Source: Solitalea lacus
GTDB lineage: Bacteria > Bacteroidota > Bacteroidia > Sphingobacteriales > Sphingobacteriaceae
NCBI RefSeq assembly: GCF_022014595.1
Contig: NZ_CP091740.1
Span: forward strand, 2,840,200 to 2,904,199
DNA: 64,000 nt
Direction: 5' to 3'
Shown: in pieces, positions 605 through 14,627 of the stretch
Layout of the letters: every line of letters begins with the position of its first letter
Numbering within the stretch: the stretch's first letter is position 1
Program-made: the position numbers and the translations under genes
Notes under the pieces: generated by a model
Databases searched by the model: none
What the model saw: the letters and a program-made list of their open reading frames with translations, nothing else
What the model was told of the DNA's origin: nothing

Positions 605-899
605 GTTTTAATTTTTGTTTTCTTTCACTACAAAATCATGTAAACAACTTAATATCTGTTGGTTTCAATAGTGAAAGTAATCAGGTTTCTTGGTTATCTA
701 TTTTAGTAAAGATATTTAATTCTTTGTAGTTACAAAACGTTGCTTAAAGTTCAATACTACTGGCAAAAACCAATATTCCATGAAGTTTGGTTTATGGTTG
801 AAACAATAAATAAAGTTTTAAATCATCATATTTGCAAAGGGATTTAAGGAAGAATAATGTTATTCCTCCAACAAAATCAAATTCAATTTAACAAGCAAT

Positions 900-1388
900 A
901 TGAACAAGGCAGTTTTCCTCGACCGAGATGGCGTTTTAAATAAAGAACTAGGTGATTACGTTTGTACGTTGAATGATTTTCAAGTTCTGGAGCACAATTT
1001 CGAGCCGTTGAAAGTTCTTCGTGACAGGGGATTTTTACTGATTGTAGTGACCAATCAAGGAGGGTTAGCAAAAGGTTGGTATACCGAAGCTACTTTGCAA
1101 AGCATGCACACCGAATTACGACGTATTTATGCAGAGCATGGTATTGAATTTGCTGAAATTTACTACTGCAATCATCACCCTGAATACACAGGCAGTTGTT
1201 TTTGTCGAAAACCAGGATCTTTACTACTGGAAAAAGCTATTGCACGGTTTAATATTGATAAAACAAAATCATACTTTATTGGCGACCGTGAACGGGATGT
1301 TATAGCAGGAGAAAATGCTGGTGTTACAGGAATTTTAATTGATAGTGATCAACCAATTTCAGAAATTATGCACTTAATTACCGCCTGA
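900..1388 (+). CDS. gmhB: D-glycero-D-manno-heptose 1,7-bisphosphate phosphatase (HAD family)
   Basis: A 162-residue HAD-IIIA phosphatase, normal length for GmhB. The nucleophile and acid pair is D8/D10 in FLDRDGVLN, the second HAD motif is VVTNQGG at 49-55, and motif IV is IGDRERD at 127-133. The loop C90-H92...C100-F-C102 matches the structural zinc site of GmhB. The family removes the 1-phosphate from heptose bisphosphate for ADP-heptose, an LPS core precursor, in the cytoplasm. The next gene starts 4 bp after the stop, suggesting cotranscription. A 7-of-8 match to TAnnTTTG lies at 827-834. Relatives acting on other phosphosugars (HisB-N-like) are possible. Confidence 0.85.
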   Translation: MNKAVFLDRDGVLNKELGDYVCTLNDFQVLEHNFEPLKVLRDRGFLLIVVTNQGGLAKGWYTEATLQSMHTELRRIYAEHGIEFAEIYYCNHHPEYTGSCFCRKPGSLLLEKAIARFNIDKTKSYFIGDRERDVIAGENAGVTGILIDSDQPISEIMHLITA

Positions 1389-1392
1389 TTGT

Positions 1393-2490
1393 ATGTCTAA
1401 ACAGTTTCAAATAGCTTGTTACAAAGTATTGACATTGCTTTTAATATTCACTTTGTTCAGAATATTATCTAGATGGTCATTCTTTATCGATCATATTTAC
1501 CATGAGCATTTGTATAAAGCTATTTCTACTGTGCAGCGTTTAATCACAGGCTGGTTGCCTTTTAGTTTTGGAGACATACTTTATACGATAATTATCTCAA
1601 TAGCTTTAATTGGAATCATTCGTTATATAAAACACTTAATAAAACAGAAAGAAAACCGTTTTTCGGTTATTGGTTTAGGCTTTTTGAACAGTTTTTCATG
1701 GATAATTTTAGCCTACCTAATCTTTCAACTTTTATGGGGGTTTAATTATTTCAGACAGCCCTTAAGTGAACAACTTAATCTCAATACTGAAAGGGGAGAC
1801 AAAGAGCAATTACATAAACTAGCTCAATTTTTAGCTGCCGAAGTAAATAAAACTCATTTACAGCTCACCGGCGATTCTTTAAAACAATACCGATCAAACA
1901 AAGGAGCCCAGGAGCTATATGCAATCGCTCAACGGGGTTACCAACAACCGGATTCATTTTCGATCAATTATTTTTCTACAAAAACATCGGTTTATAATAT
2001 ATTGATGAATTATGCCGGAATTGCTGGTTATTACAACCCGTTTTCGGGTGAAGCGCAGGTGAATACCAACCCTCCTCAATTTACCCAACCTTTTACCATT
2101 TGCCATGAAATAGCACACCAAACAGGGATCTCTGCTGAAGAAGAAGCTAATTTTGTTGGTTACCTGACCGCCCTGAAAACAAACAATTCTTTCTTTAAAT
2201 ACTCAGCTCAGCTTGAGGCTTTCATATACACCGCATCAGAATTGGGGAGATTGGACTCAGTAGCACGCAAACAATGTTATTTAAGTTTAAATAAGGGGGT
2301 CAGGGCAGACCTTAAAGAATACCGTGCTTTTTGGCGTAAATATGAAAATGCTGTTGAGCCTTATATTGAATGGTATTATGACTGGTTCTTAAAATCGAAC
2401 AATCAGCCAAAAGGCATAAGAAGCTATAATGAATTTGTGAACTTGCTACTAGGTTACTATCAACACAATAAAAAGGGTGACAAAAAATAG
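1393..2490 (+). CDS. DUF3810 family membrane protein with HExxH motif
   Basis: A 365-residue protein with three hydrophobic segments in the first 120 residues (about 10-30, 57-80 and 95-118), then a soluble domain. The soluble part carries CHEIAHQTG, with an HExxH motif at H238-H242, followed by EEEANFVGYL. A glutamate about 20 residues downstream fits a gluzincin-like metalloprotease site. The family (DUF3810) is common in Bacteroidota and has no established function. The motif suggests a membrane-anchored zinc protease, which is inference. It starts 4 bp after gmhB and converges on the minus-strand gene 6 bp downstream, with no terminator visible between them. Confidence 0.8.
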   Translation: MSKQFQIACYKVLTLLLIFTLFRILSRWSFFIDHIYHEHLYKAISTVQRLITGWLPFSFGDILYTIIISIALIGIIRYIKHLIKQKENRFSVIGLGFLNSFSWIILAYLIFQLLWGFNYFRQPLSEQLNLNTERGDKEQLHKLAQFLAAEVNKTHLQLTGDSLKQYRSNKGAQELYAIAQRGYQQPDSFSINYFSTKTSVYNILMNYAGIAGYYNPFSGEAQVNTNPPQFTQPFTICHEIAHQTGISAEEEANFVGYLTALKTNNSFFKYSAQLEAFIYTASELGRLDSVARKQCYLSLNKGVRADLKEYRAFWRKYENAVEPYIEWYYDWFLKSNNQPKGIRSYNEFVNLLLGYYQHNKKGDKK

Positions 2491-2496
2491 CTGAAA

Positions 2497-3471
2497 CTAT
2501 AACGGCCCTTTCCCTTGTGTACCCATCTGGTATACAACTGAAATAGATGGCCCATTATATCCCCACTTTAAGTTTGCTTTCTTACTGTTTTTCTCCATAT
2601 CTATTTTGAAATTAAACCCTGTATAACCAAGAGTTACCCCAACTCGTTCCCAGGCCCTATACTTAACAGCCAAATTGGCTCCAATAATTTGTCCTTTAAT
2701 GTCTTCAATTTTAAGTTGAAAGTAATCTATTTCTCCCAATACAGCCCATTTTTGAGAAAAAGCATAGCCACCCCATAATCCAAAATCGGGTAGGGGAGCT
2801 GTAAAACCATAATCAGTGGCTGCATTAAACCCCTGGGTATTTCCCTGCCCTGCAATACCAGCATTCATCTTAACCAAATGAAAACCAAAGGACGCACCAG
2901 CCTCAACTTTTGGATTAGAAATAAACGCGTAACCATAAGAGAACCTCAAAATATCTGTATCAAAAAAAGCATCAACATTTGCATTTACAGGATAAATACT
3001 GTCTCCAAAATGGATTTCTTTGTCAAGAGTTCCAGATGAACTCCGATGGATCGTGAAATAATTAAATTCGAGCTTATGCCTTTTTCCTAAATGAGTACTA
3101 AATCCCAAAAGGAAGGTTTGTGTATTCTTATTAAGATTTAAATCGTCTTCGAAATCAATCTCTGTTCCTGTTGAACCGTCAGAAGCTCCTACTTGAACCT
3201 TAGTATTATTAATAGGGAAGAAACCTCCTCCAGTAACGGAGAACTTACTTACAAACCAAGGTTTATTTTCTATCTTCTCTTTGGCTGTTTGCCCCTTCTC
3301 CTTCATTAACGGCGAGGTTGCATTTAAGAAACTTATCTTCAGAGGCGGTGATTTTAGGAAAGTTTGAGCATCCAATTTATATGAATTTGGCTCATAAATA
3401 ACTTGAGCATTGCTATTGTTTATCACACCAAACAACAACAATGAGAGAGAGTAGATTAAATGTTTTTTCAT
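2497..3471 (-). CDS. Outer-membrane beta-barrel-like protein, function unknown
   Basis: A 324-residue protein starting with a clear signal peptide (MKKHLIYSLSLLLFGVINNSNAQ). The rest shows alternating polar and hydrophobic residues, with repeated aromatic-ended strands such as HKLEFNYFTIHR and LRFSYGYAF, ending in ISVVYQMG. This is the pattern of a small outer-membrane barrel of the type Bacteroidota genomes carry in many copies. No substrate or partner can be read from sequence. It stands alone between the convergent DUF3810 gene and the transaldolase unit. Confidence 0.65.
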   Translation of the reverse strand: MKKHLIYSLSLLLFGVINNSNAQVIYEPNSYKLDAQTFLKSPPLKISFLNATSPLMKEKGQTAKEKIENKPWFVSKFSVTGGGFFPINNTKVQVGASDGSTGTEIDFEDDLNLNKNTQTFLLGFSTHLGKRHKLEFNYFTIHRSSSGTLDKEIHFGDSIYPVNANVDAFFDTDILRFSYGYAFISNPKVEAGASFGFHLVKMNAGIAGQGNTQGFNAATDYGFTAPLPDFGLWGGYAFSQKWAVLGEIDYFQLKIEDIKGQIIGANLAVKYRAWERVGVTLGYTGFNFKIDMEKNSKKANLKWGYNGPSISVVYQMGTQGKGPL

Positions 3472-3574
3472 GAAGCAAGTACTTTCTACCTAATATAGTC
3501 ATAATCAATAAGTTTATAAATATCAGTATTAGTTTTTTTAAGTATTTTTTATCACAAATTTCAGAATTACGAAA

Positions 3575-3599
3575 AAAGTCGGCTTTATAGGCCGACTTT
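3575..3599 (-). terminator. Intrinsic terminator downstream of the transaldolase gene
   Basis: A perfect 9-bp stem (AAAGTCGGC / GCCGACTTT) with a 7-base loop. Read on the minus strand it is followed by a run of T, and it lies 35 bp after the transaldolase stop. Confidence 0.75.
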
Positions 3600-3633
3600 C
3601 ATATTACTAAACTTATAATTAATTAAAACAGGC

Positions 3634-4302
3634 TTATTTAACTGCTGCTGCTGCAGCTTTTGCATGGTCAGCCAAGAATTGTTGTAAACCGATATCAGTT
3701 AACGGGTGTTTTAACAATGCTTTAATAGCTGAAAGCGGACCGGTCATTACATCAGAACCAATTTTAGCACATTCAATAATATGCATTGGGTGACGAACTG
3801 AAGCCGATAAAATTTGAGTTTCGTATCCGTAGTTATCGTAAATCAAACGAATGTCTTCAATTAACTGTAAACCGTCAGTTGAAATATCGTCTAAGCGACC
3901 TAAGAATGGAGATACAAAAGTAGCACCTGCTTTTGCAGCCAATAAAGCTTGACCAGCAGAGAATACTAATGTACAGTTTGTACGAATTCCTTTTGAAGAA
4001 AAGTATTTTAATGCTTTAACACCATCTGCGATCATTGGAACTTTAACAACAATTTTCTTGTCGATAGCTGCTAAACGCTCACCTTCCTCAATCATACCTT
4101 CAAAATCGGTAGAAATTACTTCGGCACTAACGTTATCATCTACTAAATCACAAATTGCTTTGTAATGAGCCATTACGTTTTCTTCGCCGGTAATTCCTTC
4201 TTTGGCCATCAATGAAGGGTTTGTGGTTACACCGTCTAATACTCCTAAATCCTGAGCTTCTTTAATTTGTGCCAAATTGGCTGTATCGATGAAAAACTTC
4301 AT
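3634..4302 (-). CDS. fsa: Fructose-6-phosphate aldolase / small transaldolase (TalC-Fsa type)
   Basis: A 222-residue class I aldolase of the short transaldolase family, full length. It begins [16 protein letters not shown], and the [13 protein letters not shown] block is at residues 24-36. The Schiff-base lysine is K87 in IVVKVPM. The family either moves a dihydroxyacetone unit between sugar phosphates (pentose phosphate pathway) or cleaves fructose 6-phosphate, and sequence alone does not separate the two. The protein is cytosolic. The SRP RNA lies just upstream on the same strand with its own promoter, and a strong terminator follows the gene. Confidence 0.9.
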
Positions 4303-4388
4303 TATTATTTAAAATATGAGATTTTGCTTATTTGAAATGTTGGAATTATTGGCTTAGAGGATTTTGCGCTTGCCATAAAATAAAAAAA

Positions 4389-4488
4389 TGGGTAAGCACC
4401 TTATATCGCACCGCTACAACCATCTACCCTTGCTTCCTTCCGAACCTGGGGGAGTTCAACGGGAGCTGGTCGTACAAGACTTACCCGG
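4389..4488 (-). ncRNA. ffs: Signal recognition particle RNA, small bacterial type (4.5S-like)
   Basis: Read on the minus strand, the RNA contains the invariant SRP domain IV hairpin with the GGTTCGGAAGGAAGCA core (the complement lies at 4431-4446). The ends pair: GGGTAAG near the 5' end (about 4486-4480) with CTTACCC at the 3' end (4396-4390). A T-rich run follows directly, giving a natural 3' end. TACTTTTG, a perfect Bacteroidota -7 element, sits at 4498-4491 immediately upstream. The RNA partners with Ffh in cotranslational membrane targeting. The exact ends are estimates within a few bases. Confidence 0.9.
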
Positions 4489-4490
4489 CA

Positions 4491-4498
4491 CAAAAGTA
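4491..4498 (-). promoter_or_regulatory. TAnnTTTG promoter element for SRP RNA
   Basis: TACTTTTG on the minus strand matches the Bacteroidota -7 consensus exactly and ends a few bases before the SRP RNA 5' stem. Confidence 0.6.
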
Positions 4499-4573
4499 CG
4501 TTTTTTTATTAATTATGCTAAAATATTTTAAAATAATTTCAACATATTGATAATCAACTAACAACCTTAAATT

Positions 4574-5155
4574 TTAGAATTTAACAACACAATTTGGCAA
4601 AGCTTTCTTAATTCTTTCTTGTTCATTCTTATCAAGACTATTGCCTACAAGTCCTAACTCTTTTAAATTTTTTAAGTCGCTAATATTGTCTGGCAACTTT
4701 GTTAACCTGCATCCATACAGATACAAGAATTCTAGGTTTTTAAGTTTAGTTAGATTGTTAATATCCTGCAAACCTGCATTGTCCGTTAAGTCTATTGATT
4801 TTAAGTTGCTAAGCTCTGTCAATTCTTTTGGAATGGTCGTAATGGCGTTTAGCGTTAAGCCGAGCTCCTTAAGATTTTTTAAATTCTTAATGTTACTCGG
4901 AATCTCATTAATCTGCCAACAATTTGTACTTCCATAATCGCAGTCCATCCCATTTATAGCTAAGTATCGCAAGTTGGTCATTTGAAAAACGCTGTCAGGT
5001 ATTCTTTCGCTTTCTAACTCCATTGTCGAAGTAGAATAAGTCGTATCCATATTAACCTTGTCAGCATAATGAAGCTTTGCTGTCGTTGGCGTACAGGCTG
5101 CGATAATGAAAGGTGCCGCAAAAAAAATGTTGGTTATAAGTTTTGAAGTCTTCAT
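4574..5155 (-). CDS. Leucine-rich repeat lipoprotein
   Basis: A 193-residue protein with a lipoprotein signal (IIAAC, lipidated C21). From about residue 60 it carries at least five leucine-rich repeats of about 22-23 residues, of the form LKNLKELGLTLNAITTIPKEL, LSNLKSIDLTDNAG and LKNLKELGLVGNSL. LRR solenoids usually bind proteins, so this is a small surface or periplasmic binding module whose ligand is unknown. It lies 18 bp downstream of the PEGA protein gene on the same strand, so the two are probably one operon of cell-envelope proteins. No enzymatic motif is visible. Confidence 0.75.
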   Translation of the reverse strand: MKTSKLITNIFFAAPFIIAACTPTTAKLHYADKVNMDTTYSTSTMELESERIPDSVFQMTNLRYLAINGMDCDYGSTNCWQINEIPSNIKNLKNLKELGLTLNAITTIPKELTELSNLKSIDLTDNAGLQDINNLTKLKNLEFLYLYGCRLTKLPDNISDLKNLKELGLVGNSLDKNEQERIKKALPNCVVKF

Positions 5156-5173
5156 AGAAAAGAAACATTCTAG

Positions 5174-6253
5174 CTAGTTTGTGGTGGTAGAAAAAGATAC
5201 AATTATGTAACCCTTTCCAAAAATATCACCATTTTGAATCGAGACGGAACTTTTTTGAAAATTAATAAAATATGTGCCGTTTGATTCTTTAACATCTTCC
5301 TTTGAAACTATTGAAAGCATCCAATCTTTTAATTCATTAAAATAAGTCCTCGTTTTTTCAATATCCCCATTTTTTATATGTAACAAATGTGAATAAGCTA
5401 ATGAGCCTTTTATAATAGCTAATGAGAACGGCCCCTCATATTTAAAACTTTGAGGATTTCTAAGATAAACCGTCGCGCCATTTTCTGTGGTTGTAATATT
5501 CATTTTTTTAGTTATTCCTGGATTTTGATTTCTAAAATCAGACTCCGTTCTAAAATTGAATTTACATAGAGTTGCAAGGCTATCGAATACCAAAACTTTC
5601 CTAGCATCGAGTTCTTCTCGTACTTTTCTTTCTTCAATTGAATTTTTAACAGTGATTTCGCTGCTTAACATGTTGGCGAATACGGAAGTAGTCTCATTAG
5701 CCAATATTTCAACAATCTTTTTAATTTTCTTATCGTTAAGTGAAAACTCAATGGTATAATTCCCGGCAGGAACAGATTCAGCCAACCATTGATCTTTAGT
5801 TTTGGACAGGTTATCGGCGTTCTCAATATTAGAAATGGACAACTTGATTTCGATAGGTACAGATTGTATGATTAGTTTACCGGTTTCAATTTTAACCTGT
5901 TCATTTGTTGACTGGGAATTTCCCTGCTCGGAAAATAATACTGTGTGTTTAGAAAACGGCTTAACTTTATAAGCAAGTACTTCTCCGGCTTTTACCGTAA
6001 CGACTTCTTCGTAAGGCGCATAACCATCCTTGACGATTTTCAATTTATTCTGGCCAGGTGATACATTCTCAATTACATATCCACCAATATCTGCTGAAGT
6101 TTTTCCTTTGAACAGTCCGTTCAGGAAAACGGATAATCCAGCTTCGCCATTTACTTGTATGTAGGAATTTTGAGCTTGCAGATTTGAAAGGGACAAAAAC
6201 AGAAAGAAAAGTGTAAAAACTAGTTTGTTTAAAACTGGTTTGGGTAATAGCAT
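5174..6253 (-). CDS. Secreted PEGA-domain protein
   Basis: A 359-residue protein with a signal peptide (about residues 1-28, cleaved after NLQAQ). Residues about 30-95 form a PEGA-type beta module: VNGEAGLSVFLNGLFKGKT, then NVSPGQNKLKIVKDGYAPYEE. A second, weaker copy of the fold may lie near residues 125-190 (SVPAGNYTIEFSLNDKKIKK). The C-terminal 150 residues are of unknown type. PEGA domains occur on surface and periplasmic proteins. It is the first gene of a two-gene unit with the LRR lipoprotein. The function is not known. Confidence 0.65.
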   Translation of the reverse strand: MLLPKPVLNKLVFTLFFLFLSLSNLQAQNSYIQVNGEAGLSVFLNGLFKGKTSADIGGYVIENVSPGQNKLKIVKDGYAPYEEVVTVKAGEVLAYKVKPFSKHTVLFSEQGNSQSTNEQVKIETGKLIIQSVPIEIKLSISNIENADNLSKTKDQWLAESVPAGNYTIEFSLNDKKIKKIVEILANETTSVFANMLSSEITVKNSIEERKVREELDARKVLVFDSLATLCKFNFRTESDFRNQNPGITKKMNITTTENGATVYLRNPQSFKYEGPFSLAIIKGSLAYSHLLHIKNGDIEKTRTYFNELKDWMLSIVSKEDVKESNGTYFINFQKSSVSIQNGDIFGKGYIIVSFSTTTN

Positions 6254-6290
6254 ATAACTTTAGTACTGATTAGGTTAACGCGCCAAATAT

Positions 6291-6379
6291 AGTATTCTTA
6301 GGATAAATGTAGAATACTTTAGGATAGGTGATTAAATTAGGACAGCAATTTTTAAAGATCTTAATAATTACTGTCCTAA
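6291..6379. repeat. Pair of inverted repeats in the PEGA / XRE intergenic region
   Basis: AGTATTCT (6291-6298) is repeated inverted as AGAATACT (6311-6318). TTAGGACAG (6337-6345) is repeated inverted as CTGTCCTAA (6371-6379). They sit between divergent genes, so they could be operators or a minor hairpin terminator. No T-run follows either one. Confidence 0.45.
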
Positions 6380-6473
6380 GAATAGGGACAAAAAAATACA
6401 ATGCCTTATGCCTCCTTTGGGATTTGCGGGGAGAGATTGATGCATACCAACTTTAAAACTTGCATACATATTT

Positions 6474-6519
6474 TGTTACAAATTTGATAAAAAACTAAAA
6501 AAAGTATTATTTTGTAACA
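6474..6519. promoter_or_regulatory. Candidate XRE operator half-sites
   Basis: TGTTACAAA (6474-6482) and its exact inverse TTTGTAACA (6511-6519) lie 34-79 bp upstream of the XRE regulator start. Extended by flanking bases, the first site is itself nearly palindromic (TTTGTTACAAA). Spacing and position fit autoregulation by the XRE protein, which is inference. Confidence 0.4.
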
Positions 6520-6552
6520 TCATTAACAAATCTCAATAACAAATCAATACTT

Positions 6553-6885
6553 ATGACAACCGGTGCAATTTTAAAAGCATTCCGTGAAAGGAATAATCTT
6601 TCGCAGGAGTCGGTGGCTTCTTTTCTGGAAGTGAAACGGGAAATGTTGAGTTATTATGAAAATGATAGTAGAGTAGCTCCCCTAGATGTCTTAGAAAAAC
6701 TGGCTGATTTATACGGTGCCGAACTTGCCGATTTTTTTGAAACGGACAACGATCAAATCCAGACAAATATTGCTTTTGCTTTTAGGGCTGAAGGTATTCA
6801 AGAAAGTGACTTACATCAGATAGCGCAATTCAGAAAGATTGTTAAAAATTACTTTAAGCTTATAGAACTGGAAACTCATGCTTAG
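6553..6885 (+). CDS. XRE-family transcriptional regulator of an ImmA/IrrE module
   Basis: A 110-residue protein with an N-terminal helix-turn-helix at about residues 6-62 (ILKAFRERNNLSQESVASFL, then LDVLEKLADLYG), the usual XRE layout. Its last 8 bases overlap the ImmA/IrrE gene, and the PIN gene overlaps that one in turn, so the three form one transcript. In known XRE/ImmA pairs the peptidase cleaves or relieves the repressor. Here the XRE protein would repress its own operon through the inverted sites at 6474-6519. The operator and regulation are inferred. Confidence 0.85.
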   Translation: MTTGAILKAFRERNNLSQESVASFLEVKREMLSYYENDSRVAPLDVLEKLADLYGAELADFFETDNDQIQTNIAFAFRAEGIQESDLHQIAQFRKIVKNYFKLIELETHA

Positions 6886-7609
6886 TCATTATCATTTGCA
6901 AGTAGAAGCATCTCAGTTTAGATTAATCCAAGGCATTGGAGTAAGTGAGCCTATTCGGCTAAAAAGTTGGTTACCTAAACTTGGAGTCGTTGCCCTATTT
7001 AGGCCCTTGAGCGATAATTTCTCTGGCATGGCGGTAAAGCAAGGTGAGCAGAAGTTTATCATCATAAATTCAGAACATCGATTGAGCAAACAACATTTTA
7101 CGGTCGCCCATGAACTGTATCATTTATTTATACAAAAAGACTTTACTGCAGAAGTAAGCCATGCTGGACGATTCGATAAAAAAGATAAAACTGAGTTTGA
7201 AGCAGATTGGTTTGCCGCTTATTTATTAATGCCTGAGGATGGGATACTTTCTTTAATTCCTAAAGAAGAACTTTCAAAAAATAAGATCTCATTGTCTACT
7301 CTAGTAAAAATAGAACAATATTTTGCCTGTAGTAGAACTGCATTATTAATTAGGTTAGAGAAACTGGGATTGATCGATTACTCCAAGTATGAAGCGTATA
7401 CAAAAAATGTCATTGCTAGCGCTTTAATGCTTGGTTATGATGATACTTTGTATAAAAAAGGTAATGAGAACCTTGTTATAGGAGACTATGGGGTAAGAGC
7501 CAAAAAATTGTTTGATAAGGGCACTATATCTGAATCCCATTTCATTAGTTTGATGAATGATATTGGTGTGGACATTTCTAGGATAACTAATGACAATGAG
7601 CAAGAATAA
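6878..7609 (+). CDS. ImmA/IrrE family metallopeptidase
   Basis: A 243-residue protein with the zinc site AHELYHLF (H78, E79, H82) and a third-ligand region EFEADWFAAYLLMP about 30 residues later, the hallmark of ImmA/IrrE (COG2856) peptidases. The family cleaves XRE repressors in mobile elements and stress circuits. The C-terminal third (about residues 130-243) resembles the helical substrate-recognition region but is not distinctive. It overlaps the XRE gene upstream by 8 bp and the PIN remnant downstream by 20 bp. The natural target is probably the XRE protein next door. Confidence 0.85.
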   Translation: MLSHYHLQVEASQFRLIQGIGVSEPIRLKSWLPKLGVVALFRPLSDNFSGMAVKQGEQKFIIINSEHRLSKQHFTVAHELYHLFIQKDFTAEVSHAGRFDKKDKTEFEADWFAAYLLMPEDGILSLIPKEELSKNKISLSTLVKIEQYFACSRTALLIRLEKLGLIDYSKYEAYTKNVIASALMLGYDDTLYKKGNENLVIGDYGVRAKKLFDKGTISESHFISLMNDIGVDISRITNDNEQE

Positions 7610-8130
7610 CCAGAAGCCTAAAATACTATTGGATTCTGATGTTGTCAGGCACTTTATCAATGGAGGCAAATTCTGACGCTATCTAAAATTTTCCCTAACC
7701 GCTTTGTGATGCTTGATAAAGTAAAGACGGAATTGTGCAGAAGTAAAAGCATAGAAACTCAGGTTGTCAATTTTCTTAGTATGACTAAAGTGCCTATAAT
7801 TCCTTTCCTTCCCAACGTGAAATAATTGTAGAATATGCTCTGCTTACGAAAAAATTTGGTGAAGGAGAAAGTGCCTGTATGGCGGTTGCAAGGCATCAAA
7901 AACAATTTATTGCAAGCAGTAATCTTAAAGATATTAGTGCCTATTGTTCACTACATGGTATTCACTACCTCACCACAATGGACATCCTTTTAGAAGCCTA
8001 TCATAAGGAAATTTTTACTAAAGCCGAGTGTGATACATTTATCTTAGAGGTAAAATCGAAAGGAAGTATTCTGCCTTGTAATACCTTGGATGAATTTATA
8101 GAGTTACAAAAGAAAAACAGAAAATTATAA
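7590..8130 (+). pseudogene. PIN-domain nuclease gene broken by two frameshifts
   Basis: Translating across three frames rebuilds one PIN-like protein. Frame 1 (from ATG 7590 or 7596 to the stop at 7674) gives PKILLDSDVVRHFINGG with the first acidic residue. Frame 2 (about 7668-7825) gives ILTLSKIFPNRFVMLDKV. Frame 3 (about 7816-8130) gives GEGESACMAVAR and ASSNLKDI, the usual central and distal acidic motifs of PIN RNases. Two single-base lesions, near 7670 and near 7810, separate the pieces. A partial product could start at ATG 7879. The gene overlaps the ImmA/IrrE gene by 20 bp, so it was the third member of the operon and probably the toxin. Confidence 0.8.
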
Positions 8131-8225
8131 TTATACCGCTGTAAGCTCCATCAATTTTTCTTCAGAGTGAATATTTAGCTGTGGCTTCGCCTAATGGCTT
8201 TTTTGCAACACTGGGGTTATATTTG

Positions 8226-8894
8226 CTATTTCTCAGCAGGATTTTTCTTCCCTAAAATCAATTTTTCAACTGCTTTATCAATCCTTGCCACACGAGTTTT
8301 ATCTTGTTTGGCTGTTAAAATCCAAAGTACATATTCTTTTTTGTTGGTGTAAGAGAGCTTTTGAAATGCCGTGAGTGATGCTGGATGTGATTGCATGGCA
8401 TTATTCAAATCAGGAGGGAGGTTGACCTGACGATTTTCTACATCAATAAATTCAGAAAACTCATTTTGCTTAATTTCTTCATTACACACCTCCGACTTCT
8501 TAATCTGATCATAAGGTCTGAAACGCAAAGCGGTCCAGGTATCATCAACAGATGCTGCGGCCACTCCACTCAATTTAAATTCGTCGAGTTCTTTCCAGCT
8601 ATCCATCAAACTTAAATCCGATTTAATGCTTGAAGTTTTCTTTGGATAACAAATCCAGAAAACTGTATTTGGCTTTAAGGCATTAACTACGACACTTAAG
8701 TCTCTTATCAGTTCCTCCATATTTTTAACAAACAGGAGCACAACATCATTCTTTAATCCTTTTAATTCAAAATTAAGTGTAACCTCCTCTGGTAAGGGTT
8801 CTATTAATGACATAAAACCTGTTGGGGCATTAACCAATAAAAGTTGGTTACCAGGCTGAATTCTCAACTTTTTATGAAGTGGATTTTGAGGCAT
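8226..8894 (-). CDS. YdeI/OmpD-associated family protein with DUF3052-like N-terminus
   Basis: A 222-residue cytosolic protein. Residues about 1-130 resemble the DUF3052-type domain (LRIQPGNQLLLVNAPTGF, then LKPNTVFWICYPKKTSSIKSD). Residues about 140-220 form the YdeI/OmdA-like helical domain (QVNLPPDLNNAMQ, FQKLSYTNKKEYVLWI, KTRVARIDKAVEKL). The YdeI domain has been linked to bacteriocin protection in other bacteria, but the biochemical role is unknown. It stands 18 bp downstream of the RNA methyltransferase gene on the same strand, so they may be cotranscribed. Confidence 0.75.
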   Translation of the reverse strand: MPQNPLHKKLRIQPGNQLLLVNAPTGFMSLIEPLPEEVTLNFELKGLKNDVVLLFVKNMEELIRDLSVVVNALKPNTVFWICYPKKTSSIKSDLSLMDSWKELDEFKLSGVAAASVDDTWTALRFRPYDQIKKSEVCNEEIKQNEFSEFIDVENRQVNLPPDLNNAMQSHPASLTAFQKLSYTNKKEYVLWILTAKQDKTRVARIDKAVEKLILGKKNPAEK

Positions 8895-8912
8895 TTTGTG
8901 ATTTATTTAAGC

Positions 8913-9446
8913 TTAACTTAATTTTAATTTAGAACAAAAGTCCCAACCAACTATACCCATACTTACTACAATATTAAAAGAGTGTTTGGTACCAAACTGA
9001 GGAATTTCAAGGCATTTGTCAACCATTTTCATTACATCGTCTCCAACACCATTCACTTCATTTCCGAATATTAACGCATATTTTTTACCATTAATAGGTT
9101 TAAAATCCTGCAACATAATACTGTTTTCAGCCTGTTCAATTGCAAGTACTTCATAGCCTTCAGCATGTAAATCAGCAACCGCTTCTTCAGTAGTAGCAAA
9201 ATAAAACCAATCAACTGATTGTGTTGCTCCTAAAGCTGTTTTTTCAATATCACGATGAGGAGGTTGAGCCGTTATTCCACATAAATAAATACCTTCAAGT
9301 GCAAAGGCATCGGATGTTCTGAAAATCGAACCTATATTATTCATACTTCTAACGTTATCTAAAACGATAACAATAGGAAGTTTTTCTTGATCCTTAAATT
9401 CTTCAACACTTACCCTGTTCAATTCATCCAATTTCAGTTTCCGCAT
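8913..9446 (-). CDS. SpoU/TrmH-type (SPOUT) RNA 2'-O-methyltransferase
   Basis: About 177 residues from the ATG at 9446. The open frame continues upstream to 9548, but the family-like sequence starts at MRKLKLDELNR, and a TATTTTTG promoter element at 9471-9464 lies inside the longer frame, so I chose the internal start. SPOUT motifs are present in order: NNIGSIFRTSDAF, LIFGNEVNGVGDDV, and QFGTKHSFNIVVSMGI. The product transfers methyl from S-adenosylmethionine to a ribose 2'-OH in tRNA or rRNA. The target nucleotide cannot be told. It is divergent from the dioxygenase gene. Confidence 0.85.
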   Translation of the reverse strand: MRKLKLDELNRVSVEEFKDQEKLPIVIVLDNVRSMNNIGSIFRTSDAFALEGIYLCGITAQPPHRDIEKTALGATQSVDWFYFATTEEAVADLHAEGYEVLAIEQAENSIMLQDFKPINGKKYALIFGNEVNGVGDDVMKMVDKCLEIPQFGTKHSFNIVVSMGIVGWDFCSKLKLS

Positions 9447-9463
9447 TTTATTATGTTTTGGCG

Positions 9464-9471
9464 CAAAAATA
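9464..9471 (-). promoter_or_regulatory. TAnnTTTG element upstream of the SPOUT methyltransferase
   Basis: TATTTTTG on the minus strand is an exact match, 18 bp before the chosen start codon. It lies inside the longer open frame and helps reject that start. Confidence 0.45.
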
Positions 9472-9555
9472 ATTAAAGTTAGAATTAGACGTGGAAATTT
9501 TGAATTTAAGCAGCTTAAATACTTAGATAAATTTAAATGTTTAAACATGTATTTG

Positions 9556-9563
9556 TATATTTG
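9556..9563 (+). promoter_or_regulatory. TAnnTTTG element upstream of the dioxygenase gene
   Basis: TATATTTG matches the Bacteroidota -7 consensus and lies 18 bp before the start codon of the DODA-type dioxygenase. No clear -33 TTTG is seen. Confidence 0.5.
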
Positions 9564-9580
9564 TAGAAATCAAAGAAAAA

Positions 9581-10399
9581 ATGGAAACCTTAAAAAGCTG
9601 GGTACAGTCGTTAACAACTGCAACTAACAGTCCTATAATGCCTGCTTTATTTGTAGGTCATGGTAGCCCTATGAATGCAATTGAAGAAAACGATTATACA
9701 AAAGCTTGGAAATTGATAGGGGAGTTGGTTGCAGTTCCAAAAGCAATTTTGGTTGTTTCTGCCCATTGGCTAACCAGAGGGACTTATGTTACTGCTATGG
9801 AAAAACCGCGTACCATTCATGATTTCGGAGGTTTTCCAAGGCAATTATTCGAAGTAGAGTATCCGGCACCGGGCAGTGTTGAGTTTGCTACACTAACAAA
9901 ACAGCAAGTTAAACTTGCTCAAATTGAGCTCGATCACGAATGGGGTTTGGATCATGGGACTTGGTCTGTTTTAGTAAAAATGTTTCCTCAAGCTGATATT
10001 CCTGTGTTTCAATTAAGCATTGACTTCACTAAACCCATTAGCTGGCATTACGAACTAACTAAGGAACTTAATTTTTTACGTTCTAAGGGCGTTTTAATAA
10101 TTGGTAGCGGAAATATTGTTCACAATTTACGAATGGTGAATTTTCATGAACAAGGCGGTTATGACTGGGCTAATGAATTTGATGAAACTGTAAAAGAGCT
10201 GCTAATACAAAACAACCATAGTAAATTAATAAATTTTGAAAGTCTTGGTAAAAGCGCACTTTTATCAATCCCAACAACCGAACATTATATCCCGTTAATC
10301 TACACCATAGGCTTAATGAAAGACAATGAAAACGTGTCATTCCCAATAGAGGGGATGGATTTAGGTTCCATTTCAATGAGATCTGTACTAATTAATTAA
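9581..10399 (+). CDS. ygiD: 4,5-DOPA dioxygenase extradiol-type enzyme
   Basis: A 272-residue member of the LigB-like class III extradiol dioxygenase superfamily, full length. It has FVGHGSPMNAIE near residue 25, VVSAHWLTRG near 60, DHGTWSVLVKMFP near 125 and IGSGNIVHNLR near 170, which supply the metal-binding histidines. The family opens catechol rings such as DOPA using Zn or Fe and O2. E. coli YgiD is the closest named relative and its physiological role is uncertain. The gene is monocistronic and divergent from the methyltransferase. Confidence 0.88.
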   Translation: METLKSWVQSLTTATNSPIMPALFVGHGSPMNAIEENDYTKAWKLIGELVAVPKAILVVSAHWLTRGTYVTAMEKPRTIHDFGGFPRQLFEVEYPAPGSVEFATLTKQQVKLAQIELDHEWGLDHGTWSVLVKMFPQADIPVFQLSIDFTKPISWHYELTKELNFLRSKGVLIIGSGNIVHNLRMVNFHEQGGYDWANEFDETVKELLIQNNHSKLINFESLGKSALLSIPTTEHYIPLIYTIGLMKDNENVSFPIEGMDLGSISMRSVLIN

Positions 10400-10449
10400 A
10401 AGACTGAATAAAGGATGTAAGGGAAGATATTTTGATTTTCTATTTAACA

Positions 10450-10468
10450 TAATGTTAATTATAGGAAA
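10450..10468 (+). repeat. Left copy of a 19-bp direct repeat bracketing an islet
   Basis: TAATGTTAATTATAGGAAA is repeated exactly at 13295-13313. Similarity extends upstream as TTAAC with a 1-base length difference. The two copies enclose about 2.8 kb of accessory genes. They may be insertion or excision boundaries. Confidence 0.55.
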
Positions 10469-10511
10469 AAAAGAAAAGTAAAAAGTTGACGTTTTAAGCA
10501 GAACAAAAACA

Positions 10512-10525
10512 ATTGTTTAAACAAT
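10512..10525. promoter_or_regulatory. 14-bp palindrome overlapping a start codon
   Basis: ATTGTTTAAACAAT is a perfect palindrome ending in the ATG of the 10524 open frame. It is a possible operator or ribosome-site block. Function is inferred from position only. Confidence 0.3.
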
Positions 10526-10931
10526 GAATGTGATTTTTGTACACTTTATACAACGACAAATGAAACAACTATCTGTGAGCGTAGCCACGCAAACGGATAA
10601 AGGCATTTACCAGCTATTTTTAGGTAACGGCGCTAGAATTGAATTTTCTTCAAAACGATCTGCTGAAGCATTCGCCGCCGATACATCACGTTTTTTACAA
10701 GATTGCCTATTTGAGGTAAACACCTTTTTATCTGTAATTTATTCACTCTACCGCCAACATTGGCTATTCTAATAAAAGGATATAAAAGACACTTATAATC
10801 TTTATCTGCTCTCTCAGCTAGTCAACCACTTAACATCGTTCGATGTAGCCGTTTCAACATACGGCTACAGCAGAGCGGCGGAAATTGTTCCGATTAATGT
10901 TTATAAATTAGAACGCCGCGTAAAATTCTAA
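10524..10931 (+). pseudogene. Small hypothetical gene interrupted by tandem in-frame TAA TAA
   Basis: The frame opening at ATG 10524 (or ATG 10560) ends at TAA TAA (10770-10775), then stays open in the same frame to TAA at 10929-10931. The continuation (KDIKDTYNLYLLSQLVNHL, SFDVAVSTYGYSRAAEIVP, NVYKLERRVKF) looks protein-like, so a gene of about 120-135 codons may have gained stops. Alternatively the first 82 codons are a complete gene and the rest is chance. I recognise no family. It lies inside the repeat-bracketed islet. Confidence 0.4.
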
Positions 10932-11078
10932 CTAAATACGCCCCGGCGAATGATAATTTTACCAACGTAACCACATTGTTTTTAACGGTAAAGGTTAAGC
11001 CTTTGGGAACTTTAAGAGATTGCGCCGAAACGGCAAAAAAGGAAAATAATAAGATAATTAAGGCAGTAGCTTTTTCAT
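10932..11078 (-). pseudogene. Remnant of a small secreted-protein gene (frameshifted after five codons)
   Basis: On the minus strand, ATG AAA AAG CTA CTG at 11078 stops almost at once. A one-base shift then gives LIILLFSFFAVSAQSLKVP and KGLTFTVKNNVVTLVKL, which is a signal peptide with a cleavage site followed by a mature start. The frame runs to 10894 but its last part overlaps the plus-strand frame there, so the 3' end is probably lost. Family unknown. Confidence 0.4.
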
Positions 11079-11094
11079 TGTCGTTGTATAGGTT

Positions 11095-11340
11095 TTATGA
11101 TTGCATGTTTTCAATATAATCAACTCCCTCAGAAGTGATAAATGCGGACGCTCCATCCTTTGTAATTGATGCCTTAATGAAACCTTTATGCTCAAGTTCC
11201 CTCGCAAGGGCATTGCTTTCGTTAATATTTACTTCAATTCCTTTTTCTTGCAAAATTTCAATAATGGAATGATACCCCCCATCAAATTTCTTACTATAAA
11301 GATATTGAAGTATAAAGGTCAATTTTACTTCCTGTGTCAT
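11095..11340 (-). CDS. Small hypothetical protein, winged-helix-like
   Basis: An 81-residue protein with no signal or membrane segment. The pattern TFILQYLYSKK...IIEILQEKGIEV...ALARELEHKGFI...KDGASAFITSEGVDYIE resembles a small winged helix: two helices, a recognition-like helix, then a two-strand wing. I recognise no named family. It lies in the islet, in the same direction as the neighbour at 11414 but 73 bp downstream of it. Confidence 0.55.
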   Translation of the reverse strand: MTQEVKLTFILQYLYSKKFDGGYHSIIEILQEKGIEVNINESNALARELEHKGFIKASITKDGASAFITSEGVDYIENMQS

Positions 11341-11413
11341 AGTGAATTAGATTATGATGTTATGGATTCTAGTTCATTAATATACAAAAAACAGCAAATA
11401 TATTGTTCCTGAA

Positions 11414-11809
11414 TTAATAAAGGGTTGTTCCTAGTTCAGTGCTCACAGCTTTAGAAATAGAAACGTTTATACTTACTCCTCTCGGACTATCAGGCGCGTG
11501 TACATATTTTGCATCATGCGAAAACATATCCTGAACTGGTACAATTTCACTTTTAAAAACTTCCCCATTTTCTTTGATATAGTCTACTTTAACCTCAATA
11601 TAGTCGAATTTTTCATCAACTTTATTTACTAAGGTTAAGTCTACATTACTTATACCGCCAAATGTTTTATCAGCTAAATACTTAGCGTTCACGCTAATGC
11701 AGTCGGAAGCCGTGTAATAGTTAGGCTTCTTAAATTCTTTGGATTGAGTTACAAAATAAATAACGGAGATACCGCCAATAATGGCAAAAAGAATAAGTAA
11801 ACGTTTCAT
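11414..11809 (-). CDS. Hypothetical membrane-anchored protein
   Basis: A 131-residue protein with one N-terminal hydrophobic segment (about residues 4-21, LLILFAIIGGISVIYFV) and no obvious cleavage site, so probably an inner-membrane anchor. The outer part is beta-rich (NVDLTLVNKVDEKFDYIEVKV, VFKSEIVPVQDMF). This resembles small FxLYD-like or immunoglobulin-like extracytoplasmic modules, but not firmly. Function is unknown. It lies in the islet, divergent from the coupled pair at 12098. Confidence 0.6.
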   Translation of the reverse strand: MKRLLILFAIIGGISVIYFVTQSKEFKKPNYYTASDCISVNAKYLADKTFGGISNVDLTLVNKVDEKFDYIEVKVDYIKENGEVFKSEIVPVQDMFSHDAKYVHAPDSPRGVSINVSISKAVSTELGTTLY

Positions 11810-11990
11810 AGTCGTTGTTTTAATAATGGAGCTATTTTAAGTAAAGGTTTTACAAATAGCAAAACATTTTTGGAGATTTAGCAAAGGTATTATAAAACAA
11901 AATTCAATTTCATATGGTATTAATGTTGTTGATATTTATATATAATAATTAATAATTGTTATAATTGTGCACGGTAATACAATTTGTAAT

Positions 11991-12042
11991 ACACTTAGTA
12001 ATACAAGTAACACTAAGTAATATTTAGTAACACTTAGTAATA
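11991..12042. repeat. AT-rich repeats spaced about 19-20 bp (iteron- or operator-like)
   Basis: ACACTTAGTAATA occurs at 11991-12003 and again at 12030-12042, with ACACTAAGTAATA at 12010-12022. A partial copy (TTAGTAAC) at 12024-12031 and GTAATAC half-sites near 11973-11991 add to it. The starts are 19 and 20 bp apart, roughly two helical turns. The block is 55-107 bp upstream of the coupled pair at 12098, so it is probably a binding array for a regulator. No CRISPR-like spacers are present. Confidence 0.5.
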
Positions 12043-12097
12043 TTATATATTACCATAGAAATATAATTAGTATATAATACTATATAATAGTATATTA

Positions 12098-12628
12098 ATG
12101 TATATACTAGAATACCAAAGACAAATGAAAGCAGCTACACATAAACCTGAATTGAAATTTAAAGGAGAGGATGTAGTTCAAGTATTGGACCTTCTTCATT
12201 CTTTCTTTTCACATGCGGCTCAGAGTGCAAAATTCAGTCAACAGCTACATGAAATTGGAGCAAGCACCGAATTGGCTGAATTTGTTAAAAAAGTAATAGA
12301 CCAAGATCCATTAGACTTGGTTGCGGATAATTACAATAGGAATCTAGAAATGATTAAGCAAACTATAGATGTAATTGTACAAAAGCTTTTTTCTACTCAC
12401 AAAGAGAATATTAAAAAAGCATATAGAGTACAAAGTGAGGGTGGACTATCAGTTTATGATGTAATCTTAAAGGATAGATCATTAGAAAGTCGTGCACCTT
12501 TTTTCGATTTTCAAGATGATTATGAAAAAACTGAACTTGGTAAGCAATTTCCTTTAATTATAAGATTCACAAGAGAAGCGAACCAAGATAAAATACAAAT
12601 GATAAAAGAGATAGAGTTGAGTCATTAA
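12098..12628 (+). CDS. Hypothetical protein, first gene of a coupled pair with a HEPN-like protein
   Basis: A 176-residue soluble, mainly helical protein that I do not recognise. The N-terminal part (KFKGEDVVQVLDLLHSFFSH, then KFSQQLHEIGAST) and the middle (NRNLEMIKQTIDVIVQKL) look amphipathic, and the C-terminus is beta-like (LGKQFPLIIRFTREANQD). An alternative start is ATG 12125. Its stop codon shares a base with the start of the next gene (TAATG), so translation is coupled and the products probably act together. The AT-rich repeats just upstream suggest tight control. It is possibly the partner or antidote of the HEPN-like protein, but nothing in the sequence proves this. Confidence 0.6.
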   Translation: MYILEYQRQMKAATHKPELKFKGEDVVQVLDLLHSFFSHAAQSAKFSQQLHEIGASTELAEFVKKVIDQDPLDLVADNYNRNLEMIKQTIDVIVQKLFSTHKENIKKAYRVQSEGGLSVYDVILKDRSLESRAPFFDFQDDYEKTELGKQFPLIIRFTREANQDKIQMIKEIELSH

Positions 12629-13014
12629 TGAATAGACATATTAATCAGGCTCAACATAACGAAACGTTCTTAGCCTTTATTGAAAACCATTCTCCTGATG
12701 ATTACAATGACTGGAAAATTACAGTCATTTTTTATATAGCCGTTCACTATATTCAAGCATTTTACTTAGAACATGGAATTACGGTTGACAATCATAAGCA
12801 AAGGGCCGAAGTGATGCAAAATCGAAATGGTGAACCTGTTTCACGTCTCTGTTTTACTGCCTATCAATCATTATACTGGTTATCAATAGATTCAAGGTAT
12901 ACTGCACAAGGGTGCATTGCTACTCACAGAGATCAATTAGTTGACAATGTAGAGGATGCAAAGGATGCACTAATTAAGGTAAAGGAGTTTGTAATGAACT
13001 ATTTTAACAGTTAA
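12628..13014 (+). CDS. HEPN-like protein
   Basis: A 128-residue all-helical protein with the layout of one HEPN subgroup: DDYNDWKITVIFYIAVHYIQAF, a short loop with NHKQRAEVM, YQSLYWLSIDSRYTAQG, and a final long helix DQLVDNVEDAKDALIKVKEFV. HEPN proteins are often RNases or their partners in toxin-antitoxin and abortive-infection systems. The catalytic RX4-6H motif is not in its usual place: the only nearby pair, RYTAQGCIATH, is too widely spaced. It may therefore be a binding rather than catalytic HEPN. The start overlaps the stop of the preceding gene. Confidence 0.55.
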   Translation: MNRHINQAQHNETFLAFIENHSPDDYNDWKITVIFYIAVHYIQAFYLEHGITVDNHKQRAEVMQNRNGEPVSRLCFTAYQSLYWLSIDSRYTAQGCIATHRDQLVDNVEDAKDALIKVKEFVMNYFNS

Positions 13015-13328
13015 GCATTAATATTTTATATATTAGTAACCACATTCGTTGCGTTGTCGTTGACACAAAAGACAGTATCCAAAATAGTGCGCAACTTTGC
13101 ACAAACAAACCCCTCCTATCTTTTCAAAAAAAGCATTCAAAAAATATTTTCTTTTAACTATTGTTTTTTCGTTTCAGTTTCTTTGTTGTTTAGATTAGAG
13201 CTATTCTGCAAGGCCAAAAACGCGTGCACTCTTGAATCTCAAAAACGGCCTTTAAAGCATCAAAAACGAGCTTTTCTTCTTTCTTCCTTAACGGTAATGT
13301 TAATTATAGGAAATTAATATATAGTAAA
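13015..13328. other. Non-coding stretch at the right end of the islet
   Basis: Apart from the 19-bp repeat at 13295-13313, I see no gene. The plus-strand open frame of 87 codons (13054-13317) has a Phe/Lys/Ser-rich composition from T-rich low-complexity DNA and is not convincing. Confidence 0.5.
13295..13313 (+). repeat. Right copy of the 19-bp direct repeat bracketing the islet
   Basis: An exact copy of the sequence at 10450-10468. It ends 15 bp before the terminator of the next minus-strand gene. Confidence 0.55.
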
Positions 13329-13355
13329 AAAACCGTCGTTATCAGAGACGGTTTT
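13329..13355 (-). terminator. Intrinsic terminator
   Basis: A 9-bp stem (AAAACCGTC / GACGGTTTT) followed on the minus strand by a T-run. It lies just after the stop of the 13368-14627 gene. Confidence 0.75.
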
Positions 13356-13367
13356 ATTTTGAAAGTC

Positions 13368-14627
13368 CTATTTTATCGTATATCTTATTAAAAACTGGTA
13401 ATAATTGATACTTGATTTTACTCCAGAGTAAGGTGATACTCCATTTGAGCGATCATTTCGTAGGTCAAACTTGAATTTTCTATAATTTGCACCTAAGGCA
13501 AAAACCAATGCTTGCTCATACTTTCTAAATTCATTAAAAAATGGTAGACGTCCTGAATGACTTGCCACAACAGTATTTTCTGAATAATAATTATAATCAA
13601 CATTTATTGCAAAGCCATTAGAGATACCTAAACCAATAAAGGGTTTTATAAGTCCATTCGGGTATTGATATCTAAGCAGATTAACCATTTTAATATAACT
13701 AGCCATTATTCGAAGATCAGAGACATTATGAAACTCATCAATTTTATAAGATCCTTCAGAAACTGTTGAATACGAACTATAAATCAATTGATTATCTATA
13801 GAAAATTGCTTCCGATTACGAGGCAGATAATACGTAAGGGCGACTCCTATAGTGGGGCTAAAAGAGTTTTTAAATTTATAAGGCAAACTCAGGACATTAC
13901 CTCCACCACTAAATGATGGATTGATAGTATTAAAACCTACCAATACGTCAAATTCTAATGGAGTATTCCTCCTAACAATCTTATTGGGGTTACTTATTTC
14001 TTCATTATGCTTCTCAAATATTCTTACAATGTTTGTTGTTCCGAATAATACAGTATTAATTTTAGCGGCAAGTGATGGTTTGGGGTTTAAAAGGCCTATT
14101 AATTGCTCTCTGAATGTGTTTAATTCGGCAACATAACTTCCTCCACCTCGCTCAATTAATGCTTTTTGGTGAATAAGCTCTTTTGCTTTTCCCTCATGAT
14201 CAACAATATATAAGTGATCAACTGCAAGCTTATCATGAAACAAGTATAAATCATAATCACTTTTTATCAGTAAGTGCAAAAAAACAGTTGAATCTTTTAC
14301 GTTAATTGGCATTACATTAGGTTCCATCTGGTTGATATTTTTGGTTCCAACATTCATATCAACCGTAAACTGCTTATAAGATTCTTCATCTGTACCAAAA
14401 GCAATTATTTCATTGATAGTATATGTTGTTTCCGCACCACCACCACTTTGGCGAAAAGTAACTTTTGACGGATTGGATTCCCAATTTCGATCATCCAGTT
14501 CTCCTTTAATTGTATCTCCGTTAAACTTTTTTATAATATATCCGGGAACAAAATTGGTTTGGGCAAATGTTTTAACCGATACTAACACAAAAGTTAATGC
14601 AATTACTATAAGTAAATATTTTTTCAT
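13368..14627 (-). CDS. Secreted / outer-membrane protein of unknown function
   Basis: A 419-residue protein with a signal peptide cleaved after about residue 23 (VKTFAQ). The N-terminal third has PGYIIKKFNGDTIKGELDDR, TYTINEIIAFG and YKQF. This is a pattern often seen in Bacteroidota outer-membrane proteins that read like small beta modules. From about residue 225 there are alternating strands (EFDVLVGFNTINPSF, IGVALTYYLPR, FKFDLRNDR) ending in YQFLIRYTIK with the hydrophobic end typical of barrels. It probably sits in the outer membrane. It is monocistronic, with its own terminator. Confidence 0.65.
   Translation of the reverse strand: MKKYLLIVIALTFVLVSVKTFAQTNFVPGYIIKKFNGDTIKGELDDRNWESNPSKVTFRQSGGGAETTYTINEIIAFGTDEESYKQFTVDMNVGTKNINQMEPNVMPINVKDSTVFLHLLIKSDYDLYLFHDKLAVDHLYIVDHEGKAKELIHQKALIERGGGSYVAELNTFREQLIGLLNPKPSLAAKINTVLFGTTNIVRIFEKHNEEISNPNKIVRRNTPLEFDVLVGFNTINPSFSGGGNVLSLPYKFKNSFSPTIGVALTYYLPRNRKQFSIDNQLIYSSYSTVSEGSYKIDEFHNVSDLRIMASYIKMVNLLRYQYPNGLIKPFIGLGISNGFAINVDYNYYSENTVVASHSGRLPFFNEFRKYEQALVFALGANYRKFKFDLRNDRSNGVSPYSGVKSSINYYQFLIRYTIK

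Follow-up and report, generated by a model that had tools for sequence, protein, structure and literature searches.

In the chromosome of Solitalea lacus, two small adjacent genes, here named A and B, probably form a mobile two-gene toxin-antitoxin or abortive-infection unit, which consists of a HEPN ribonuclease toxin and a non-enzymatic pseudo-MNT inhibitor (MNT, minimal nucleotidyltransferase). The pair lies in a stretch of 64,000 nucleotides (hereafter the window; all coordinates without a locus name refer to it), which is part of a single-contig 4.4-Mb chromosome. The features of the pair are as follows.

12098..12628, + strand: gene A (partner), open reading frame (ORF) of 176 aa
12628..13014, + strand: gene B (HEPN protein), ORF of 128 aa
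12626..12630, + strand: TAATG, sequence containing the stop of gene A and the start of gene B

An earlier note, made from the sequence, had recognized the common TAATG; the two ORFs overlap by 1 nt, and gene B may be translationally coupled to gene A at this site. The true start of gene A is probably Met10 (base 12125, giving 167 aa), because its close homologs begin at this position, their first residue being aligned to Met10. Over 48 homologous pairs, the spacing between the two genes ranges from -41 to +28 nt with a median of -1, and the genes overlap in 27 of them.

In the mechanism that we propose, gene B would encode a HEPN ribonuclease-type toxin using the alternative AF0298/HEPN-T site instead of Rx4-6H, and gene A, which would be made first, would encode its dedicated inhibitor. 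Loss, degradation, or sensing-away of A, for example during phage infection, would then allow B to cleave RNA, and growth would stop. Such a unit would be mobile and often phage-borne.

The predicted HEPN fold and putative site of gene B

The AlphaFold2 model of gene B, which was based on a 27-row alignment, has a pLDDT of 92.4 and a pTM of 0.87 and contains helices at residues 2–21, 27–48, 56–64, 73–91, and 97–127. The top match of this model in a Foldseek search against PDB was the HEPN protein AF_0298 (2hsb, E = 1.6e-3). The next were 1ufb (an entry titled without a family), 1o3u, sacsin HEPN, and HEPN toxins, and the earliest plainly unrelated match was in row 16. VIA-align superposed the model on 2hsb over 119 residues at 2.5 Å with a Z score of 14.4, which for gene B is the only score above the level of about 13 under which helical bundles may match by chance. 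The first five VIA-align rows are HEPN entries, again with the exception of 1ufb, and the sixth is 3mfn, a protein of unknown function (Z = 11.5). The model thus strongly supports the HEPN fold that had been suggested for the 128-residue protein. At the sequence level, gene B is sub-threshold to the Pfam model PF05168 (13.2 bits, cut-off 22). This model matched 12 of 23 family members at E values up to 1 (best 7.2e-5), and PDB sequence searches with the HEPN and partner profiles gave nothing better than E = 0.12.

Among 53 aligned homologs (a set that includes the near-identical L047 and L062), N11, D28, W29, T32, Y36, H56, and Y91 are invariant and H40 and R90 are each kept in 52 sequences; the column counts of D28, W29, T32, Y36, and H40 are biased because the viral members were found with a DNA pattern and had to carry those residues, and N11, H56, R90, and Y91 were not demanded by it. 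A classical Rx4-6H motif starting from R90 is present in only 4 of the 53 sequences, which are scattered, and it is not conserved. In AF0298-like HEPN-T and AbiV proteins, according to the published account of these families, the motif His is missing and the basic residue is kept, and a conserved His in the insert between helices 2 and 3 has been proposed as an alternative active site; other HEPN families are also described there as lacking Rx4-6H (Anantharaman et al. 2013, PMC3710099). In the model of gene B, H56 occupies the segment between the second and third helices, and R90 the end of the third. In an alignment, they correspond to the His and Arg of the ordinary HEPN-T protein from locus L104 (genome G739), a protein whose own search yields 2hsb at E = 0.0013. 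As judged from the modelled helices and this alignment, H56 and R90 fit the published AF0298-type alternative site. Their conservation at this site points to catalysis or tight substrate binding, and the putative site would comprise H56 (helix 2–3 segment) and R90 (helix 3 end), probably together with H40, D28, and Y91. The earlier view of a HEPN protein without RX4-6H is therefore correct for the classical motif; the protein is not motif-less, having the AF0298-type His and Arg.

The HEPN-T/UPF0332 family (PF05168), represented by AF_0298, provides the best fold match of gene B and has the same His in the helix 2–3 segment and Arg at the end of helix 3, as seen with L104. Gene B differs from it in its sub-threshold Pfam score, in its DW..T..FY.A.H signature, and in having 'RY' where HEPN-T has R...DY. 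Gene B belongs to the HEPN fold and, by its site, on the HEPN-T side. A motif-less HEPN-T family which is mostly bacterial, Cpin_6617, appears in Table 1 of PMC3710099. AbiV, an abortive-infection HEPN, has been described as carrying an alternative His of the same kind (PMC3710099).

The partner and its predicted MNT-like domain

No Pfam, PADLOC, or NCBIfam family was found above threshold for gene A, in agreement with its earlier description as an unknown protein. It had also been described as helical, which does not apply to the whole protein: The model has a helical N-terminal half and an alpha/beta, MNT-like C-terminal domain (about residues 81–175). The mean pLDDT of this AlphaFold2 model (12-row alignment) is 76.5; by ten-residue blocks it reaches 87–98 for residues 81–160 and 42–65 for residues 1–70, being below 50 for residues 1–23 and low until about residue 70. 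The confident part begins with a long helix (71–100), two strands (105–111 and 118–124), and a helix (129–143), and ends with a strand (153–157), a helix (160–165), and a strand (168–171).

The best three VIA-align matches of gene A were structures of MNTs, enzymes that accompany and silence HEPN toxins in nature, namely 8xeh_E (89 residues, 2.8 Å), 8xeo_B (Z = 7.9), and 2rff (Z = 7.5), with a top Z of 8.2 for 8xeh_E that is near the level which the tool calls common and compares with 6.8 for the best ribosomal row. HI0073 (1no5) and DNA polymerase beta came next at 6.5, among ribosomal domains at 6–6.8. VIA-align re-aligns Foldseek matches only, and the Foldseek results were weak (E about 0.05–0.3), with an unrelated protein in the first row and HI0073 1no5 and the Shewanella MNT 5yep_A (E = 0.07–0.11) within the first five. 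Against a viral structure library, none of the best 50 of 415 matches was better than E = 0.028 or had an informative name. The MNT matches modestly suggest an MNT-like fold for the C-terminal domain. The suggestion is strengthened by the gene order, since the position 5' of HEPN is where an MNT would be expected: In known modules, as described in PMC3710099, MNT is almost always 5' of HEPN.

Examination of 48 partner sequences revealed that none contains the strict catalytic motif GSx9-11DxD. A loose version, G[ST]x7-13[DE]x[DE], is present in four of them, with different letters each time, and the modelled strand-turn-strand of gene A (105–111/118–124) has 6 residues where MNTs have the G-loop. 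The pair resembles and differs from the HEPN-MNT modules (HepT-MntA, type VII) in several respects. Both have a HEPN fold and a small gene directly 5' of HEPN, and the best, though modest, structural matches of the C-terminal domain of gene A are MNTs. On the other hand, the partners lack GSx10DxD, the gene B family lacks a conserved RX4HXY, and gene A carries a helical N-terminal half in addition. The pair would act in the manner of HEPN-MNT, but we did not file it there because the partners lack the catalytic motif.

A true type VII system, in which A transfers nucleotides to B via a diverged active site, would agree with the structural matches of A, with the MNT-HEPN gene order, and with the conserved tyrosines Y36 and Y91 in B. 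It is improbable, however, considering the absence of the strict motif, the inconsistent letters of the loose one, and the short G-loop segment in the model; in a studied MNT, mutation of the motif is reported to have abolished AMPylation (PMC11586414). Because the MNT-like domain appears to have lost the catalytic GSx10DxD, gene A would most likely keep the HEPN protein silent through binding, in the manner of type II systems, and not by AMPylation. Among the matches listed in a search of the open-licence PMC literature, none described a HEPN antitoxin that is an inactive MNT.

The partners fall into three types, which hhalign did not relate to each other (E = 0.056, 0.038, and 0.74; probability about 1 or less), so that a common origin of these types rests on their position and on a layout assigned by eye. 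Partners are also more variable than the HEPN proteins, with a mean column identity of 15% (24 partners) versus 23% (27 HEPN proteins).

Pairing and distribution in bacteria and phages

Within the order, 400 genomes were searched with a four-sequence HEPN profile, which gave 24 places in 23 genomes (the seeds are counted); without the spurious G038, 23 credible places in 22 genomes remained. A partner is located directly upstream of HEPN at all 23 of these Bacteroidota places (21 partners are intact, one is cut by a contig end, and one is frameshifted). A wider HEPN profile matched 7 of 345 genomes of the phylum, which included two known loci (the window's own and G016), two new pairs (L101 and L102), L103, L104, and one spurious match. 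A single-sequence search of 150 genomes reached three besides the window's own, and two HEPN queries gave no match in a plasmid collection. Two profile matches without a HEPN ORF, L032 (G038) and L105 (G750), were discarded as spurious; L006, a match which is out of frame within an MFS gene, was also rejected.

Two of the loci found have unusual arrangements. In L103 (G710, 1126–1869, reverse strand), a partner and an N-terminally truncated HEPN are contained in one open frame, which represents either a deletion fusion or a degraded locus. L104 (G739, 680–2147, reverse strand) contains two ordinary HEPN-T genes in tandem and, behind each of them, a gene for a small partner of 93–104 aa that by eye looks alpha/beta. 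This arrangement parallels the A-B pair in reversed order; the locus was set apart from the gene B family and from the 48 pairs.

Viral contigs yielded 27 loci with a genuine HEPN ORF, a set that includes five contigs common to two separate searches. An ORF is present directly upstream of HEPN in 25 of the 27, that is, in all 25 with enough upstream sequence; in L057 and L058, the available stretch ends too close to HEPN. L061 and 17 of 23 further stretches found with the DNA pattern were not counted as relatives, having no complete ORF or scoring at most 14.6 bits versus 53.9–88.0 for the six accepted. The earlier note had considered that homologs of the two genes might occur mostly apart; they occur together, both in the bacterial places and in the viral contigs.

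Starting from the partner gave the same association. The profile of the window-type partner matched 6 of 400 genomes, with HEPN adjacent in all six, and the type-A partner profile matched 14 of 300, 12 of them beside HEPN. The remaining two (G356 and G373) have a broken partner gene, and the 3.3 kb examined contain either no HEPN or a remnant of it. Over the 48 pairs, HEPN similarities and partner similarities are correlated (Mantel r = 0.84, reached by 0 of 2000 permutations; Spearman 0.48), which shows joint inheritance, not contact. L016, L017, L052, L057, L058 (a viral copy of the L017 type), and L062 were left out of this set, being cut, frameshifted, near-identical to L047, or with a partner ORF outside the analysis. 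Thus, A and B are two small co-directional adjacent genes that are inherited together, with exceptions in G356, G373, and G391.

In G391, an intact HEPN gene accompanies a frameshifted partner. A lethal toxin is hard to reconcile with this arrangement, unless the partner fragment is still functional or the base in question is erroneous. This case, together with the lack of a conserved Rx4-6H and the published view that some HEPN families are non-catalytic (PMC3710099), would suit a system that is no toxin at all, in which a non-catalytic HEPN and an adaptor serve RNA binding or phage gene regulation. Such a role seems hardly probable, as H40, H56, R90, and Y91 are kept in 52–53 of 53 homologs and H56 and R90 are placed at the published alternative site. 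We prefer the toxin and its inhibitor.

In Thermus phage Tsatsa and a Microcystis phage, the small gene and HEPN adjoin an integrase gene. Based on these two records and the window chromosome, the hosts concerned belong to at least three phyla. The Tsatsa HEPN (Tsatsa_33), which has relatives in IN93-like proviruses, belongs to the same family as gene B according to tblastn (E = 4e-3, 29.8% over 72%); it has the conserved columns of gene B and a small overlapping gene 5' of HEPN. HEPN proteins of this type have been proposed to be effectors of a defense active in lysogeny (PMC11437467), and the part of that report dealing with the proposed effector does not discuss the overlapping partner gene. 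Another HEPN effector carried by a prophage is Tha of Staphylococcus aureus. As described in PMC11087260, Tha differs in being a single protein of 301 aa with the classical motif RNSIMH and in having an inhibitor, Ith, encoded by an overlapping antisense gene. As the pair recurs both in bacterial genomes and in phages of several phyla, a widespread toxin-antitoxin or phage-defense unit without a name is the probable interpretation.

One alternative is that the pair is an abortive-infection system with A as its sensor or trigger: A and B would be inert as a complex, from which B is released when A recognizes a phage product. The greater divergence of the partners is what an arms race would produce, the pair is carried by phages beside an integrase gene and, in G061, within a prophage late region, and the Tsatsa HEPN is proposed in PMC11437467 to be a lysogeny-stage defense effector. 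However, no trigger is known, fast divergence is usual for antitoxins too, and the overlap and 5' position suit an inhibitor equally. We consider this alternative rather unlikely, although less so than the two discussed above, and favor A as a dedicated inhibitor.

We also analyzed the neighbors of the pair in 21 of the 23 loci, using 138 of 146 selected ORFs (8 long ones were left out; L008 and L133 were not included as the ORF filter lost their HEPN gene). Among the 25 commonest of 42, 127, and 152 families, there were phage and defense genes (terminase, endolysin, minor tail, restriction-methylation, PD-Lambda-2, and SocA-like) as well as transport, biosynthesis, and SusD genes. Because neighbors mix phage, defense, and housekeeping genes, no enrichment in defense islands was shown in the 21 loci. 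In L007 (G061, 3207–13579), the pair is inside a prophage late region, downstream of the terminase small subunit; the genes on both sides of it resemble tail genes by eye. PADLOC 2.0.0 gave no matches for either window protein at E = 10 and weak, single matches in relatives (best E = 0.0011 and 0.002).

The interpretation offered in the earlier note is partly supported: The architecture, the pairing, and the HEPN fold are retained, the toxicity and defense role are putative, and the views of the HEPN motif and of the helical partner are amended. The toxin-antitoxin or abortive-infection architecture itself agrees with the pairing, gene order, overlap, islet repeats, and phage carriage; an enrichment in defense islands was not shown.

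The islet, its flanking repeats and the intergenic array

The gene pair is located inside a 2.8-kb islet bracketed by direct repeats, and an array of shorter repeats is present in the divergent intergenic region (288 bp) upstream of gene A.

10450..10468, + strand: left copy of the 19-bp direct repeat TAATGTTAATTATAGGAAA, exact sequence match
13295..13313, + strand: right copy of the 19-bp direct repeat TAATGTTAATTATAGGAAA, exact sequence match
11991..12045, no strand: AT-rich direct-repeat array, period about 20 bp, 2.8 copies, detected by Tandem Repeats Finder

The repeat-bracketed islet proved sharper than had been claimed. The two exact copies of TAATGTTAATTATAGGAAA are the only ones in the 4.4-Mb genome, and both flank the islet; its last 18 bp also have two genome copies, and a reversed control has none. 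Of 60 genomes searched, two contain an exact copy, the own genome (counted in the 60) and the congener G003. In G003, this single copy is separated from the 3' end of bioB by about 90 bp. Congener G001 has a single copy with one mismatch at about the same distance from bioB, and no copy was found in the G002 stretch with up to three mismatches allowed.

When positions 5–20 kb of the window were compared with six 16-kb stretches from three congeners, counterparts were present for 8.2–10.4 kb and 14.7–20 kb, and no match was found for about 10.47–13.3 kb. Genes A and B were not found in the three congeners. This pattern agrees with the integration of a small element, the repeats being att-like or target repeats. 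Such a reading is complicated by the varying placement of a 419-aa gene between the right repeat and bioB, whose counterpart adjoins bioB in G002 and not in G001 or G003, and by the left flank of the islet, which is at other locations in the congeners. No integrase was seen in the list of ORFs inside the islet.

The array at 11991–12045 has a Tandem Repeats Finder score of 82, whereas the highest score among 200 dinucleotide shuffles of this intergenic sequence was 70, so that the iteron-like array noticed earlier is real. As a conserved feature it was rejected: For 25 homologous partner genes, the preceding 300 bp contained nothing comparable and scored 46 at best, and the array is therefore local. 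It may be considered a candidate operator. The divergent gene (11414–11809, - strand) encodes a hydrophobic stretch at its start, as expected from its previous description as small and membrane-anchored.

Additional elements were observed in the window. The leader motif ACAACGAC has three matches, versus 0.09 expected, and these are directly 5' of three ATG codons (10550–10562, + strand; 11076–11087, - strand; 11807–11818, - strand). The copy at 11087 heads a frame of six codons and resembles a dead gene start. At 6553–7609, a Cro/C1-type HTH gene overlaps the M78 (ImmA/IrrE) peptidase gene that comes after it; pairs of this kind are common in mobile elements. A Bacteroidales small SRP RNA (105.7 bits) is present at 4386–4493 (- strand).

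Taken further, and more tentatively than the function of the pair itself, these genes may represent an unnamed widespread lineage of HEPN toxins with a His-His-Arg site and a pseudo-nucleotidyltransferase antitoxin, carried as cargo by phages with hosts in several phyla, in which AMPylating silencing was perhaps replaced by, or arose from, stoichiometric binding. If this is true, a HEPN set with a catalytically dead MNT-like partner would show how enzymatic and binding antitoxins interconvert. It would also offer an experimentally tractable alternative HEPN active site, and a phage-carried candidate defense unit missed by the copies of Pfam, NCBIfam, and PADLOC that were searched.
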